Below, piece by piece: positions 7,436 through 28,040 of a DNA stretch of 30,840 nt; within the stretch, counting starts at the first letter, position 1, and each line of letters begins with the position of its first letter. Location of the stretch: positions 1 through 30,840 of IMG/VR virus record IMGVR_UViG_3300017788_000110; one strand, given 5' to 3'. Origin of the DNA: a virus. Under the pieces are notes generated by a model. The model was given only the letters and a program-made list of their open reading frames with translations, was not told the DNA's origin and ran no database searches. Both the position numbers and the translations under genes were made by a program.

Positions 7436-8758
7436 ATGGAAATGATGGCAAGTGGCAAAACGTCGGCTGATGGTGCATTGTCGCCATACGACTTTACACT
7501 CATTGAATTAAAAATTGTCAACGCTTCTGGCACGAGCATAGATATTAATTTTATCTATAGTGAAATTAATATCTATGAAGATATCTTTAACAATGTTATA
7601 AACGGTGATATCTTATTGACTGATTCGAGTGACATTATTAATAGAATGGGAATACACGGAAATGAATTTATCTCAATTGTTTTTAAATCACCTGGAATGA
7701 AAAGATTTGAGAAAGTGTTTAGAATCTATAAAATAAGTGAGTATTCTTTGCAAGGAACATCTGCTGCCAAATATAAACTACATTTTTGTTCAGAAGAGTT
7801 TCTACTCAATCAGCAATATTTTATCTCAAAATCATTCAGAGAAACTCGATTGTCTGATGTAGTGAGGATTATTGCGCAAAACTATTTAAAAATATCATCA
7901 AATAAATTCTCAGAATCTAACATAGAAGAATCTACACTTCTACTTACACCTGAGAAGAATCCTTTAATAGTGCCAAATTTAAGACCACTCGAAGCCATCA
8001 ATTGGATATCATCTTTTGCACTCAGCAAAGATTTGTCTCCAGGTTTTTTCTTTTATGAAACTGCTGATGGATTTAAATTTAGTTCTATGAGTAGCATTTA
8101 TTCGCAGATTCCAAAAAGAAAACTATATTACTCTGCAAAAAACCTTGTACAAAATGAGAGCATTGCATCACAACATAGTAAACTTGATGAATTACAGTTT
8201 CGACAGGTGTTCGACACACTAGAGAGTATAAGCAGTGGTGCATTTGCGTCGCAATTAATTACTTTAGATGTTATGAATAGAACTGTGGAAGGTGAAGTTA
8301 TGTCTTCATCTATTCAACAATATAAAACATTGAATCAATATTTGCCATATAATAACGCTAGGAATAGAATTGGATCATCTATAAGTCAGGCTTCTGGATA
8401 CATAAGAATGTTTCCAAAATTTCAAGACAATCTTGCTAGTCAGTGGTTGTTGATGAGAGCTTCTAGACTCGCGCTATTAAATAACACAAGATTACATATT
8501 GACATTCCAGGCGACAGCTCGCTATCTGTTGGTGATATTGTATATGTAAGCGTTCCACAAAACGCAGCAGAAACAAATCCTGATAATATTTCAGAAGATC
8601 GATATATGTCTGGCAATTATTTAATTACTGGTCTAAGACATCAATTGTTAGATACCAGGTATCATTGTTATGCTCAATTGTGTAAAGATTCTGTCAATGT
8701 TAATCTAAACTATTCGCCGCCAGTCAATTCAATGTGGAATACGGTAATTAATTCATGA
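7436..8758 (+). CDS. 27: gp27-like baseplate hub protein
   Basis: Trimeric hub ring that carries the gp5 needle and matches it to the sixfold sheath and tube. 440 aa against 391 in T4. Seen: N-terminal tube-like beta domain (FTLIELKIVNASG..IDINFIYSEINIYEDIF..INGDILLTDSSDIINR), a central domain with NPLIVPNLRPLEAINWISSFA and GFFFYETADGFKFSS, and a second tube-like domain ending LNNTRLHIDIPGDSSLSVGDIVYVSVP..SGNYLITGLRHQL. This order is that of gp27/Mu gp44-type hub proteins. It overlaps gp5 by ATGA, and the products are direct partners in T4. Three Met codons within the first four residues leave the exact start open by a few residues. Confidence 0.88.
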   Translation: MEMMASGKTSADGALSPYDFTLIELKIVNASGTSIDINFIYSEINIYEDIFNNVINGDILLTDSSDIINRMGIHGNEFISIVFKSPGMKRFEKVFRIYKISEYSLQGTSAAKYKLHFCSEEFLLNQQYFISKSFRETRLSDVVRIIAQNYLKISSNKFSESNIEESTLLLTPEKNPLIVPNLRPLEAINWISSFALSKDLSPGFFFYETADGFKFSSMSSIYSQIPKRKLYYSAKNLVQNESIASQHSKLDELQFRQVFDTLESISSGAFASQLITLDVMNRTVEGEVMSSSIQQYKTLNQYLPYNNARNRIGSSISQASGYIRMFPKFQDNLASQWLLMRASRLALLNNTRLHIDIPGDSSLSVGDIVYVSVPQNAAETNPDNISEDRYMSGNYLITGLRHQLLDTRYHCYAQLCKDSVNVNLNYSPPVNSMWNTVINS

Positions 8759-18489: not shown

Positions 18490-21400
18490 ATGGCAACAGA
18501 TTTTAATGTAGAACCATTTTACGACGACTTCCAAGCCTCCAATGGAGCCAAGGAAGAAAACTACATGCGTATTCTATTCCGACCTGGTTATGCAGTTCAG
18601 GCTCGTGAACTAACGCAAATTCAAAGTATAATTCAGAATCAAATTAAGCAGTTCGGTGATCATATCTTTCAAAATGGATCTCCAGTTTTCGGCGGTCAGA
18701 TCACTTATGATTTAAATGTGCCATATATTAAGTTACAAACTACTTATAACGGAGCTGACGTTGATGTTGAAGACTTTGCTGATGCAGTAGTCCGTAACGT
18801 CTCTGGAACTGCAAAAATCCGCGCAAGAGTTGTAGCGTCTGACGATACTTTAACTTATCCAACTCTCATGTTAAAGTATTTAAGAGGAACAAAATTCTCA
18901 GATAATGAAGTTATTTCAAATGCAGAATCTGGCGGAACGGAAGCAAAATTATTAGCTGCAGCAGCAACTGGATTTGGATCTGTCGCGTCTATTCAGCCTG
19001 GAGTTTTCTATGTTGATGGATTCTTTGTTCAGGTTGCAGAACAATCGATTGTGCTTGATGCATATGGGAGCACACCATCTTATAAGGTTGGATTGCAGAT
19101 TGTTGAAAAGATTGTTGATGAAAGTGCAGACGCAAATCTTCTTGATCCAGCACAGGCTTCATTCAACTATCAAGCTCCTGGTGCTCATCGTTATCAATTC
19201 AATCTTGAGTTGACAAAACGTACTATTAATTCAGCAGACGACACCAAGTTCTTTGAACTTCTTCGTATTGAAAATGGCGTAATCACGAAACAAGTTAAGT
19301 ATCCATTTTATTCTGAACTTGAGAAGACTCTTGCTCGCCGAACCTATGACGAATCTGGAGACTACACAGTAACTCCATTCAAACTCTCGCTAGAAGCAAA
19401 CACTGCTAATTCAACCAACTTTATCGCTATCGTTGAACCTGGAAAGGCATATGTTAAGGGATTTGAATATGAATCAATCGGTCCACAAAGAATTGAAGGA
19501 CCAAAGGCAAGAACAAAACAGACTTCAACAGATTTTGATTTGTCTCTAGAGTATGGTAATTATTTGTATGCAAATTCTGTTGTTGGCTCTGCAAATGGAT
19601 TTGCAAATACTGCAAGTCTAACTACACTCGAATTGCATTGTGTCCCAAAGAATAGTATTAACACAACAAATTCTATTACATACAATGCAACTTATATGGG
19701 TAATGCAAAACTTAAACATATTACTCGTAATTCAGGAGCAGAGTATATCATCTATTTGAGCGATGTGGCTCTTGAATCAAATACTGTAACAGCGGGTTCT
19801 ACAGGCGCAAATACTCTAGCCATTAATTTCCCTGTAAACTATTCAAATCTCGCAGATGCTTATGCTAACGTTTCTGTTAGAGTAACTTCTGGTTCTTCTG
19901 CAGGCGATGTGCGTAAAATTGTTTCATATAACCCATCAACGAGAGTTGGCGTGGTTGATCTACCGTTCACAGGTTTGATTGGAGCTGGACAAACTTTTGC
20001 ATTGCTTTACAGCACTAAAGATATTGATTCTCTTGTTGATGTAATTTCAACTAAAACTGCATTTAATGTTTCTATGAATGTTTCAAATAACAGTAAAGAT
20101 ACTGCAGGTGGAACAATCGTATATGACTCAAATCGCAGAACATTAATCTTTAAACTACCAGAGGCGCAAATTGCTAATGGAACAATCGATAATGCAGATT
20201 ATGTTACGAATCGATTCTTCGCATCACAATCATTCAACGCCAGTGGTATCCTATCATTACCATTAACAAATAATGAAGTTCTTGATTATGGATCAGATGG
20301 CAGCACCTTATCTTCTGCACTCGTCAGTCAAAATTTTATTATTGTGGTTAGAAGCATTGGTACAGCAAGTGGTGCGAGCGTCGGCGATATTATTACTCCA
20401 ACGAGTATTACACGCACTTCAAGCACTGGTCTTACAATTAATTCTGGTTTAGGTGGATCTTTCACTGCTGACATTTATGTTCGTGTGAAGATGGACAATT
20501 CAGAAGATTATAATCGTCGCCTAAAGGTTGTAAAAGGAAACGTTGCAAATACAACTCTAACTGCTACTGCAAATTACACAGGTGGTCAAGCAACATCAGT
20601 GAGCGGGTGTACTAGTATTTACATTGACTCTGCTAATGGTAGAGTTTGGTACACGGATACATCAATCATTAATAAAACACCAGGTGGTAATACATCATTG
20701 TTTATTCCTGATGTTTATAGATTGGTTAAAGTTTATGATTCTGGTAGTGTTTCATATGCTCCAAATTCTACGAATGTGATTGACGTAACTCAAAGTTTTT
20801 ACTTAGATCCAGGTCAAACGTCAGAATACTACGATCACTCAAAACTTGTTCTAAAGGCTGGTAGAAATCCGCCAAGAGGACAAACAGTCGTGATTTTGGA
20901 ATACTACGATCATTCCACAACTGCTGGATATTTTAACGTTGACTCATATCCTTCGACACAATATGATAATGGTGAGATTCCAGTGTTTAAATCAAATGAT
21001 AAAACAAGTTTCCCATTACGCGATTGTATTGATTTTAGACCAACGAGAACACTAGGTACAACTGCAAATACATTCTTTGGTGCTCGCATTCCACTTCCAT
21101 ATGAATCTATGGAAATGTCATATGAATATTATGTGCCAAGAAAAGATAAAATTGTTGTCACTTCTTCAAAAGAATTAAAACTCATAAGTGGTATTGCAGA
21201 TAAAAATCCAAAATATCCAGCAGATCTATCTGATGCAATGACGTTGTTTACGTTAGATATTCCTGCATATACAAATTCTGCAAAAGATATTACCGTAAAG
21301 GCGATGGATCATCGTCGTTACACAATGCGTGATATTGGTAAACTTGAGCAAAGAATTAAGAATGTTGAATATTACTCTGCATTGTCTTTGGCAGAAACAA

Positions 21401-22404
21401 AGGCAAAGGATTCTACTCTATTCTACGAAGATAATGCCACACAGAAAGAAAAATATGGCATTCTTGTAGATAATTTCAGTGGATTCGCAGTCGGTGACAC
21501 ATCAAGTCCAGACTTCAAGTGTTCAATTGAAAACGGTGCGTTGAAGCCATATGGCAAAACAACTAATATTAATTTAGTTCCATATGATAAATCATATACG
21601 AAGCCTGATGATCCTACGCACTCAAGAAAAACAATGTGGTCTATTCCTTCTAGTGAGATGATCATAAACAATCAAACTTCTGCTACAAAAAATACTGCAG
21701 TTATTCCGCCAGTATTGGCTGCGAAGTTTGATGGTTGGTTAACATTGGTGCCGTCTTCTGATAATTACTTCTCTGTCACAATACCGCCAGTTGTAATTTC
21801 ACCAACAGTGGTGATACCAACACCACCGCCTGTTGCGCCAGAAGTAATCTACTATACACCTCCAATTCCACCTGCAGTGGAGGTGCCAGTCACACCACCA
21901 GCTCCTCCTCCTCCGCCACCACCTGTGGCGCAGGCACCGATTGAGCCTGTGATTCCGCCACCCCCACCTTATGTACCTCCGCCATTTGTTCCACCTCCAC
22001 CTCCAGTGTATGTGGCACCACCACCTGTGGTTGTGCCAGAACCATTTTATCCACAGATTATTATGCAACCTATGCCATATCCAGACCCTGCAGAAGTTGG
22101 TGAGTTTTTGGTCATACCATCACCACCAGTGCCTGCATCACCACCACCAATTCCGCCACCAATTAATTTTGGTTTGACATTGGGTGGTGCGTTAACAATT
22201 AATTATGCAGAGATTTTCCCACCACCAGCGATTGAAATTCCACCTGATGTTGTGGGCACTGCACCAGAAGTCACCGTTGTTGATACTTGGTACAATGCTC
22301 CATCATACACACCAGAATTCTTGGCAACGCCAAGCGACACTGGAACGAGTGGCGGTGGTGGAGGAGACTTTGAATTTGAGATGTTCAGCACAGAACTGAA
22401 CTAA
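18490..22404 (+). CDS. Large tail structural protein, DUF4815 family, with proline-rich C-terminus
   Basis: 1304 aa. The N-terminus FYDDFQASNGAKEENYMRILFRPGYAVQARELTQIQSIIQNQIKQFGDHIFQNGSPVFGG is the hallmark of DUF4815 proteins, large virion components of aquatic T4-like phages encoded after gp8, where T4 has genes 9-12. A central region with PGVFYVDGFFVQV and EPGKAYVKGFEYE follows, then FPLRDCIDFRPTR and a helical MRDIGKLEQRIKNVEYYSALSLAE stretch (about 945-985). Residues about 1095-1255 are strongly proline-rich (PPPPP tracts, PPFVPP, PPVYVAPPP) and probably extended. The end has GGGGG and FEFEMF. Role: probably baseplate-peripheral or fibre-attachment, by position; not proven. AT-rich spacer of 11 bases after gp8. 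Confidence 0.88.
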   Translation: MATDFNVEPFYDDFQASNGAKEENYMRILFRPGYAVQARELTQIQSIIQNQIKQFGDHIFQNGSPVFGGQITYDLNVPYIKLQTTYNGADVDVEDFADAVVRNVSGTAKIRARVVASDDTLTYPTLMLKYLRGTKFSDNEVISNAESGGTEAKLLAAAATGFGSVASIQPGVFYVDGFFVQVAEQSIVLDAYGSTPSYKVGLQIVEKIVDESADANLLDPAQASFNYQAPGAHRYQFNLELTKRTINSADDTKFFELLRIENGVITKQVKYPFYSELEKTLARRTYDESGDYTVTPFKLSLEANTANSTNFIAIVEPGKAYVKGFEYESIGPQRIEGPKARTKQTSTDFDLSLEYGNYLYANSVVGSANGFANTASLTTLELHCVPKNSINTTNSITYNATYMGNAKLKHITRNSGAEYIIYLSDVALESNTVTAGSTGANTLAINFPVNYSNLADAYANVSVRVTSGSSAGDVRKIVSYNPSTRVGVVDLPFTGLIGAGQTFALLYSTKDIDSLVDVISTKTAFNVSMNVSNNSKDTAGGTIVYDSNRRTLIFKLPEAQIANGTIDNADYVTNRFFASQSFNASGILSLPLTNNEVLDYGSDGSTLSSALVSQNFIIVVRSIGTASGASVGDIITPTSITRTSSTGLTINSGLGGSFTADIYVRVKMDNSEDYNRRLKVVKGNVANTTLTATANYTGGQATSVSGCTSIYIDSANGRVWYTDTSIINKTPGGNTSLFIPDVYRLVKVYDSGSVSYAPNSTNVIDVTQSFYLDPGQTSEYYDHSKLVLKAGRNPPRGQTVVILEYYDHSTTAGYFNVDSYPSTQYDNGEIPVFKSNDKTSFPLRDCIDFRPTRTLGTTANTFFGARIPLPYESMEMSYEYYVPRKDKIVVTSSKELKLISGIADKNPKYPADLSDAMTLFTLDIPAYTNSAKDITVKAMDHRRYTMRDIGKLEQRIKNVEYYSALSLAETKAKDSTLFYEDNATQKEKYGILVDNFSGFAVGDTSSPDFKCSIENGALKPYGKTTNINLVPYDKSYTKPDDPTHSRKTMWSIPSSEMIINNQTSATKNTAVIPPVLAAKFDGWLTLVPSSDNYFSVTIPPVVISPTVVIPTPPPVAPEVIYYTPPIPPAVEVPVTPPAPPPPPPPVAQAPIEPVIPPPPPYVPPPFVPPPPPVYVAPPPVVVPEPFYPQIIMQPMPYPDPAEVGEFLVIPSPPVPASPPPIPPPINFGLTLGGALTINYAEIFPPPAIEIPPDVVGTAPEVTVVDTWYNAPSYTPEFLATPSDTGTSGGGGGDFEFEMFSTELN

Positions 22405-25167: not shown

Positions 25168-25392
25168 ATGTTAATTAAGATAAAAGATAATGATGATCTA
25201 GTAAGAGACGGGCGATCACAGGCAATTTTGAATATTAATAAAAAAACTCTTTTAAAAGATCAGATGTTTCAAGAAAAAATGAAAAGAGAACGGGAAATAG
25301 ACACTTCAATAAATAACCTCAAAGAAGAAATTTCCTCTATCAAAGGTGATCTTTCAAAAATTTTAGAAATGCTTTCTAGGGAAAACAAGTAA
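25168..25392 (+). CDS. Small coiled-coil protein next to tail fibres (74 aa)
   Basis: [24 protein letters not shown] is a short beta-type head that I recognise from small conserved proteins of aquatic T4-like phages, which lack a known function. The rest ([39 protein letters not shown]) is a predicted helix with heptad-spaced I/L residues, so a coiled-coil oligomer is likely. It starts four bases after the 912-aa gene and its stop overlaps the start of the S74 fibre (TAATG), which suggests it is made in step with the fibre and may be a fibre connector or assembly factor. That role is inference. Confidence 0.8.
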
Positions 25393-27011
25393 TGGCAAAC
25401 GCAAATATTACACACATTCAACTTGTTAATACATTTAATGAGTGGCGAGCAATCACAAATGATTTGATTGAAGATAGAAATAATCTTCGAAATTCAGATT
25501 ATTATAAAGATAATGGCAAGTTGATCCTTCAAGACTTAACTGTTTCTGGTAATTTAATTGTTCAAGGTAACTCAACAACTTTGAATACCGAAGTGCTTAC
25601 AGTTGAAGATGCAGATATTAAACTTCTATCAAACGTTACAGGTTCTCCAGTTCTGGATGCAGGGATTACAGTCAATCGTGGAACATCTACTGATACTTTC
25701 TTGCGTTGGAACGAAACAACAGACAAGTGGGGATGGAGTGACACTGGCTCCACTTTCTATTCATTTGATTCTGCATTATTTGCATATACACAAGCAAATA
25801 CTGCTCGTAATACAGCAAACGATGCATATAGCGCAGCGAACGCTGCAGCGGGAACTGGTGGAAGTGCCACTACAATTGCTCAAAATGCTTATGGTCAAGC
25901 GAATAATGCAGCAAATTCAGCTAGGGTAATTCACGCAAACACAAATGCTACATTTGACAATACTGTTATTACAGTAGCAAACTCAGCATCAGTTAATGTT
26001 CGTTCTGCAGCAGGTTCTGGTTCTTCAAATACTGTATTTTATTTTGAAGCAAATACATCCAATCCAGCTGTGTTAGGACCAGTAGGACCACAGGGTCCAC
26101 AAGGTCCTCAAGGAAATCAAGGTGTTGCTGGTCCGCAAGGTCCTCAAGGTGTCAGTGGTCCACAAGGACCACAAGGCGATTTAGGTCCACAAGGTCCTCA
26201 AGGAAATCAAGGTGTTGCTGGTCCGCAAGGACCACAAGGTCCTCAAGGAAATCAAGGTGTTGCTGGTCCGCAAGGACCACAAGGTCCTCAAGGAAACTCT
26301 GTCACTGGTCCTCAAGGACCACAGGGACCACAAGGAAATTCCATCACTGGTCCTCAAGGTCCTCAAGGTCCATCTGGTCCATCTGGTCCATCTGGTGGCG
26401 GTGGCGGTGGTACTGGTCCACAAGGACCACAGGGTCCGCAAGGACCACAGGGTCCGCAAGGACCACAGGGACCACAGGGACCAGAGGGTCCACAAGGTCC
26501 TCAAGGAAACTCTGTCACTGGTCCACAAGGTCCGCAAGGTCCATCAGGTCCATCAGGTCCATCTGGTGGCGGCGGTGGCGTTTCTAACACAATAAATCAT
26601 GTTTATTTTGGTGGCTTAACTGTAAGTACAACATCAACATCTGTTGCATCAGACGAAATTCGTTCTTCTGGCGATGTAATTGCTTATTATTCTTCTGACC
26701 GTAGACTTAAAGAAAATATTCGTAACATCGAAAATGCTCTTGAGTTAGTGAAAAAAATTGACGGCGTTAGATATGATTGGAAAGATGATCATATTCAAAG
26801 TCGTGGTGGAGAAGATGGATATTTTGTTCGAAAACAAGATGTTGGCGTAATTGCACAAGATATTGTGTCTGTCTTACCTGAAGTTGTCGCAGAAAGAGCA
26901 GATGGAACTTTAGCTGTTAAGTATGATAAAATTGTTGCACTCTTAATTGAAGCCATTAAAGATCTAGACAAAAAACATGATTCATTAATGGATATGATCA
27001 AAAGAGGTTGA
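25392..27011 (+). CDS. Collagen-like tail fibre with C-terminal peptidase S74 chaperone
   Basis: 539 aa. N-terminal [18 protein letters not shown], then a fibre module [63 protein letters not shown] (about 47-120). A short AY-x-QAN coiled-coil part follows ([25 protein letters not shown]). Residues 229-396 are collagen-like Gly-Pro-Gln triplets, with two poly-Gly breaks. The C-terminal 106 residues are the S74 intramolecular chaperone: [66 protein letters not shown]74 domains trimerise fibres and cut themselves off before the Ser of the S-D-x-R-L-K motif, here Ser435. Likely a side or tail fibre touching the host. Translationally coupled to the coiled-coil gene. Confidence 0.93.
26076..26579 (+). 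repeat. Collagen-like Gly-Pro-Gln repeat region in fibre gene
   Basis: About 56 Gly-x-y triplets, mostly GPQ, encoded by 9-base units (GGTCCTCAA, GGACCACAA). Higher-order units occur: [15 protein letters not shown] repeats almost identically (for example around 26190-26280), and [14 protein letters not shown] appears twice (near 26365 and 26545). The long minus-strand open frame across it is a by-product of the repeat. Confidence 0.92.
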
Positions 27012-27014
27012 GCA

Positions 27015-28040
27015 ATGACACCACTTTCTGGACAAATCAGCATGAGTTCACTTAGATCTGAAATTTTGCAAGCAGGATCAGGTCAGGTTGCATTGCGCGG
27101 TGATGCTGGAAATAGATTAGGATTAGGTTCCGACACTAATGTAAAATTGAGTGATTTATATAGATCATATGGTGCCACAATCACATCAGGAACATATAGT
27201 GGTTTATTTGGCGATCAATATGGATATGCAGATGGCTTGCATGGAACTATTGATGATCAAGTTATTTTGTCAAATGTGAGTGTACAACAAAACGTCACTG
27301 CAGTGATATCATATGCTAGTAGCGGTCAAGAATTAATGGGGATGAACGTTCAATTCGCAAATTATACTGCTGGCAATGTTAATATTTTAGCAACACAAAA
27401 TACTCAAAGAACGATAACATCTATTGTCAATCCTACCACTAGTCCAGGTGTAGCTGAACTTTATTGGGATCAAAGCGGCACTCTTCCTAGCAGTGGAACA
27501 TTTACAATTGGTCTGAGATTCAATGATGGTGGTCCAATAGATACTGGCGGCGGAGGTGGCGGCGGCGGAGGTGGCGGCGGCGGTGGATGCTGTTTCACTC
27601 ATGATACGATGGTAACGATGGCAGATTTATCAACAAAAGAAATAAACAAAATAAAAGTCGGTGATCATATTCTATCATTTAATCCAGATATAAATGCTCT
27701 TGAAACGAACGAAGTTTCTGAAGTAATCACTCGCGTAAACAGAAAAATGTATAAGTTTACAATTAATAATGGTAAAGAAATTAGAGCATCGCAAGATCAC
27801 CCATTTTACGTTGTTGGAAAGGGATACTGTTCAATGAATCCTCTGATGACGATGAATGGTTATAAAAATTTGACAGATGTAAAAACAATTGAAATTGGTG
27901 ATAATTTTATTGACAAAGACAGCAATTTAATCAGTGTAAACCAAATTACACCAATAGATCATTATGATACTGTTTATACATTTAATAATAAAAATAAATC
28001 AAGCCCTAATTTTTATGCTCATGGTGTGCTGGTCTATTAA
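27015..28040 (+). CDS. Tail-associated protein ending in poly-Gly linker and Hint (hedgehog/intein) domain
   Basis: 341 aa. The N-terminus MTPLSGQISMSSLRSE..VKLSDLY resembles the small SGQISMSxxR tail-tip proteins of many phages. Residues about 55-178 are a beta-rich body. A run of 14 Gly leads to Cys192-Cys193. From Cys193 the rest reads as a Hint domain: CFTHDTMVTMADLSTKEINKIKVGDHILSF (block A region), EIRASQDHPFYVVGKGYC (block B with His262), and the final YDTVYTFNN..NFYAHGVLVY (block F/G region). The N-terminal nucleophile and block B His are present, but the C-terminal His-Asn is missing: the protein stops at HGVLVY. So N-S acyl shift and cleavage or ester transfer, as in hedgehog or bacterial intein-like domains, is plausible, while protein splicing is not. 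It lies between two fibre genes, so the substrate may be a virion surface protein or the host. Confidence 0.85.
   Translation: MTPLSGQISMSSLRSEILQAGSGQVALRGDAGNRLGLGSDTNVKLSDLYRSYGATITSGTYSGLFGDQYGYADGLHGTIDDQVILSNVSVQQNVTAVISYASSGQELMGMNVQFANYTAGNVNILATQNTQRTITSIVNPTTSPGVAELYWDQSGTLPSSGTFTIGLRFNDGGPIDTGGGGGGGGGGGGGGCCFTHDTMVTMADLSTKEINKIKVGDHILSFNPDINALETNEVSEVITRVNRKMYKFTINNGKEIRASQDHPFYVVGKGYCSMNPLMTMNGYKNLTDVKTIEIGDNFIDKDSNLISVNQITPIDHYDTVYTFNNKNKSSPNFYAHGVLVY

Follow-up and report, generated by a model that had tools for sequence, protein, structure and literature searches.

The window, i.e. the whole stretch of DNA analysed here (30,840 nt), carries a T4-like tail module with a baseplate wedge protein whose best matches are those of Methylophilales phage Melnitz, Pelagibacter phage HTVC008M and Synechococcus phages. 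Within this region, gene X encodes a protein that terminates in a Hint domain (Table 1). A previous sequence-only reading of this DNA had described the ORF, a run of 14 Gly, Cys193 and His262, and all of these were found to be correct in position and identity (341 aa; Gly at 178-191). The fibre gene adjoining upstream (25392-27011) displays collagen-like GPQ repeats and a C-terminal S74 chaperone domain. Promoter and terminator scans around gene X gave chance level only and PADLOC returned no match.

Table 1. Features of gene X. Fractions of 99 refer to the aligned Hint domains of phage contigs, fractions of 5 to the family of gene X.
Feature	Position	Strand	Evidence
Whole gene X, 341-aa tail-region protein with Hint at its end	27015..28040	+	ORF, translation, same locus in four related contigs
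N-terminal part, residues 1-177 (SGQISMSSL...), differing between relatives, probably beta-rich	27015..27545	+	BLASTP comparison
Poly-glycine linker, residues 178-191 (14 Gly)	27546..27587	+	Length differs in relatives
Cys192, Hint residue -1	27588..27590	+	Cys in 5/5 family members
Cys193, Hint residue 1, predicted nucleophile of the N-S acyl shift	27591..27593	+	Start of TIGR01445 match; 5/5 members
Hint domain, residues 193-341	27591..28037	+	Profile matches, AlphaFold model, Foldseek
His262, block B His	27798..27800	+	His in 98/99 phage-contig Hint domains
Pro331, replacing block F His	28005..28007	+	Pro in exactly five family members; His in 87/99
Tyr341 and stop, replacing penultimate His and terminal Asn	28035..28040	+	Same end in all relatives from C-terminal pattern

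The C-terminus of gene X is a Hint domain, as had been claimed. The intein_Nterm profile TIGR01445 scores 33.1 bits (curated cut-off 24.5) with a match starting exactly at Cys193, and PF01079 (Hint) scores 30.4 bits (curated cut-off 29.7) if the domain alone is used as query. Residues 187-341 were modelled with AlphaFold on the basis of 23 related sequences, resulting in a pLDDT of 91.1 and a pTM of 0.86. The top PDB match of this model in Foldseek is BIL2 of Tetrahymena (TM 0.84), and further matches comprise the Clostridium BIL 2lwy, inteins and hedgehog (1at0). The family profile likewise detects BIL2 of Tetrahymena (1e-24) and 2lwy (1e-21), whereas the match to Hog sequences in a profile search is weak (E about 5e-4). 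Fold and blocks A, B and F together place the domain in the Hint superfamily. The N-terminal part could only be modelled with a pLDDT of 35, which is too poor for use, and on its own has no match among cultured phages.

The top Pfam match of about residues 193-305 (27591-27930) is the AXH domain PF08517 (37.7 bits, cut-off 33), known from human ataxin-1 and HBP1. It matches 18 of the 23 phage Hints, and the A5 alignment profile detects ataxin-1 structures at 5e-10. AXH may be a Hint truncated ahead of block F. No open-literature paper was found that combines the terms 'AXH domain' and 'intein'.

A scan of viral contigs with the single protein was empty, and it was a degenerate poly-Gly-Cys-Phe pattern that revealed the family. 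For the residue survey, 99 distinct full-length Hint domains of phage contigs were aligned. Most of these loci were retrieved by a pattern containing Cys1, Phe2 and Thr6, so conservation at these positions is partly by construction. L148-L150 carry CCFAGDT and must have entered the collection via the ETNEV stretch, and the family members (the window is not in the collection) were recovered again by a C-terminal pattern without the Cys. The block F Asn is present in 99/99 domains, and block B has Thr in 94/99 and Ser in 5/99. His occupies the penultimate position (G:6) in 92/99, and the terminal Asn (G:7) is the last residue in 92/99. Five domains have Tyr at G:6 and a stop codon instead of the Asn, and these are the same five that have Pro in block F. 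They are the window, L144 (identical in L143, L145 and L146), L147, L148 and L149/L150, and only in these five of the 99 are block F His, penultimate His and terminal Asn all missing. All five keep Cys1, the block B Ser/Thr-x-x-His and the block F Asn. Their proteins end with GVLVY or GVLTY and the stop (5/5), one residue short of the intein Asn.

The sequence-only reading was therefore right about the missing His-Asn, and the loss of Cys193 or His262 in close relatives, which it had named as refuting its view, was seen in none of the five distinct members. Its blocks B and F are present as well; the block F His, however, is Pro331, and Ser259 stands where block B usually has Thr (Ser259-Gln-Asp-His262). 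A Cys indeed follows the poly-Gly, but the residue at -1 is Cys192 rather than Gly. This -1 Cys is conserved in the family and is found in 12/99 of the phage-contig Hints overall. Poly-Gly lengths among the members are 14, about 10, 5, 4 and 6. With its length unconserved, the stretch is a linker and not a tuned junction. Apart from positions 192 and 193, the protein of gene X has a single further cysteine, Cys272; its equivalent is Ala in L148/L149 and hence only the Cys192-Cys193 pair is conserved. As a guess, this pair could form a redox lock.

The step-one residues are kept, while those for Asn cyclisation have disappeared jointly. Judged from the residues, the family thus has no C-terminal cleavage left, but its N-terminal acyl shift is probably intact. 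This corresponds to the logic of a B-type BIL or of hedgehog, the latter being what had been suggested before. Among the known classes, class 1 inteins share Cys1 and the block B motif with the family, but their C-terminal His-Asn followed by Cys/Ser/Thr is lacking in 5/5 members. A-type BILs also have a C-terminal His-Asn, which again is absent here. Hog combines a C-terminal Hint with a sterol-recognition region, whereas our protein stops at the Hint; hedgehog resembles it in having a C-terminal Hint that uses the N-S acyl shift alone, and differs in the weak sequence match and the phage context. B-type BILs, i.e. domains with intein motifs minus block G in variable, non-conserved proteins, agree best when judged by their described features: both have the Hint fold, Cys1 and the block B His, both lack an intein-like block G, and both occur in variable proteins (PMC4031507, PMC7765530). 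In contrast to these, the window Hint forms the extreme C-terminus of a phage tail-region protein and has no flank after it, and its block F/G region is still recognisably derived (NFYAxGVLxY). BIL2 of Tetrahymena BUBL1, although being the top match in both structure and profile, retains a C-terminal Asn (the structure is that of C1A-N143A), which the window Hint does not have.

Hint identity among the five members is 59-92%, and 60-74% between the groups window/L144, L147 and L148/L149. The domain is under strong purifying selection: dN/dS is 0.04 for L148/L149, and the divergent pairs show pN of 0.16-0.25 vs pS of 0.63-0.87, with synonymous sites near saturation. A degenerate intein or BIL retained as a folded, non-catalytic decoration would fit the loss of both His (block F and penultimate) and of the Asn. 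We consider this improbable, as every member keeps all step-one residues, the selection is strong and the end point is identical in all lineages.

The tail genes that precede the Hint gene form the same series in the window, L144, L147, L148 and L149. Between the window and L144 the N-terminal parts share 64% identity, while BLASTP reveals no relation between those of window/L144, L147 and L148/L149; in the window, L144 and L147 they look complete. L188 and L195 carry a protein without a Hint at this locus. Together with the unrelated N-terminal parts, this indicates that the Hint is constant but optional, a module that follows exchangeable proteins. Cultured phages provide distant Hints only and no close relative, the long matches being in Ruminococcus phages and the rest mostly inteins of enzymes. 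No Hint was found among the gene products read from the tail region of Melnitz, and bacterial species genomes yielded a single distant relative only. Each of 14 related virus records, mostly fragments, has one Hint, which argues against a second Hint gene as partner.

S74 chaperone domains are shed from fibres, and by analogy the Hint could be an assembly aid that hydrolysis or thiolysis removes, so that the tail protein would then end in poly-Gly-Cys. Like S74, it is a constant C-terminal domain behind variable bodies, the adjoining fibre gene combines collagen repeats with just such a domain, and cleavage without splicing has been reported for B-type BILs (PMC4031507). On the whole such plain self-cleavage is rather unlikely: Hint-less proteins of the same kinds at the locus imply that the Hint is unneeded for folding, and the split of a fibre gene described below would be left unexplained. 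For the window protein taken by itself, plain cleavage is almost as likely as ligation or acyl transfer.

The fibre gene is split in L148 (6123-10066), L149 (6177-9970) and also L150. The first ORF comprises the fibre head, repeats, GGGG, the Hint and a stop, but no fibre end. The second ORF overlaps this stop by TAATG; it starts with Met-Ser-Thr directly in the repeats and leads into the fibre end without a head. In L188, the head and end profiles both match a single ORF, which occupies this very locus, and both also match a second fibre gene, a paralogue, in each of L148, L149 and L150. As three contigs from separate metagenomes show the split, it is unlikely to be an assembly error. Purifying selection acts on the second half (dN/dS 0.19; 0.07 for the last 60 aa). 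A -1 frameshift across the TAATG of L148 would fuse the halves, and no canonical slippery heptamer was seen by eye. The position of the Hint at the cut of a fibre gene suggests that it joins separate tail parts. Phage fibres often consist of two non-covalently joined gene products, however, thus a split gene need not imply ligation. In the window and L147 a split partner is missing; the next gene follows 35 or 49 bp downstream and starts with MAQ..., and its orthologues occur in L188 and L191, where no Hint was seen.

L144 has a 46-aa ORF (8453-8593, MSANTENNS...) with a Met-Ser start that overlaps the stop of the Hint gene. This ORF is absent from the window and L147.

We favour the explanation that the C-terminal Hint is a single-turnover acyl-transfer module, used at one locus by variable tail proteins. 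It would activate the end of the upstream tail protein as a thioester on Cys193, presumably with Ser259, His262 and the block F Asn assisting. With no Asn to cyclise, the Hint would be released only via an outside nucleophile taking the acyl group, which could be water, a thiol or a second polypeptide offering an amine or Ser/Lys. In L148-L150 the next gene product, i.e. the other half of the split fibre, would serve as acceptor with its N-terminus, and the TAATG stop/restart would replace the C-terminal cleavage step of an intein: once a separate chain supplies the second piece, Asn cyclisation becomes needless and its residues can be lost. For A-type BILs, the proposed route leads from an N-terminal thioester via Asn cyclisation, which frees the C-terminal piece, to an attack of the amine of this piece on the thioester (PMC4031507). 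Split inteins and A-type BILs resemble the family in the Cys1 thioester, predicted here, and possibly in joining two chains, but the family has neither His-Asn nor a C-intein piece, and the second chain of L148-L150 is separate and made from a new start codon. BIL2 of BUBL1 is reported to form an isopeptide bond between the C-terminus of a ubiquitin-like protein and Lys (PMC8616854). This and the residue pattern argue for acyl transfer, with two-chain fibre ligation in the L148 lineage, and we assign a probability of about 0.6 to this reading. The Hint-less genes in L188 and L195 imply that the module is dispensable.

The sequence-only reading had proposed attachment of the tail protein to another fibre subunit. 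The split fibre genes of L148-L150 speak indirectly for this idea, but the window itself has no partner half, and its protein may undergo either cleavage or conjugation to some acceptor. The other proposed target, a host surface molecule bound covalently on contact, found no support. It draws on the analogy with hedgehog cholesterolysis and is highly improbable, as the protein ends at the Hint without a later domain able to bind lipid or another acceptor, and no host link was found.

To our knowledge no clear biological role has emerged for BIL domains in the two decades they have been known. A half-reaction Hint that follows exchangeable tail proteins and splits a fibre gene in one lineage makes such a role directly testable, the role in question being covalent assembly or timed release of virion parts. 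Only tentatively, phage tails might hold a natural protein-ligation system, in which the fibre chains of two genes are welded by a one-sided Hint, stop and start do the job of Asn cyclisation, and variable tail modules are joined by chemistry instead of gene fusion. If ligation holds true, nature would have its own equivalent of expressed protein ligation. Public data already contain annotated Hint domains of phage proteins. To judge by the open papers searched, what is new is the form truncated at its end, together with its locus and the split fibre, and no open-literature paper on intein-like joining of phage fibres was found.

Other phage tail Hints (L125-type hub, L151-type and lambda J-like) are similar in being part of tail proteins with, in most types, poly-Gly followed by the Hint, and those of the L125 and L151 types share 32-36% identity with the family. 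Unlike the family, they retain His-Asn, followed in nearly all by Ala, Lys or Gly. Hub-type tail proteins in L125, L126, L040, L106, L124 and L128 have poly-Gly and a C-terminal Hint ending in HN-Lys plus a short tail; a homologue in the cultured phage P19250A has neither poly-Gly nor Hint. The wedge-type protein of the window (18490-22404, FNVxPYYDDF) has no Hint, unlike its relatives in L129 (1345-6669) and L134 (4077-6623), which carry a different C-terminal Hint ending in NGYGTTSI. In many phage contigs of L002-L121 (e.g. L105:4283-4672, L010:7437-7823) a long tail-tip protein (lambda J-like) has its Hint close to the N-terminus, at a distance of about 10-60 residues. Being flanked by two Gly-rich stretches and ending in HN-Ala or HN-Gly, not HN-Cys/Ser/Thr, these look like a widespread A-type BIL.
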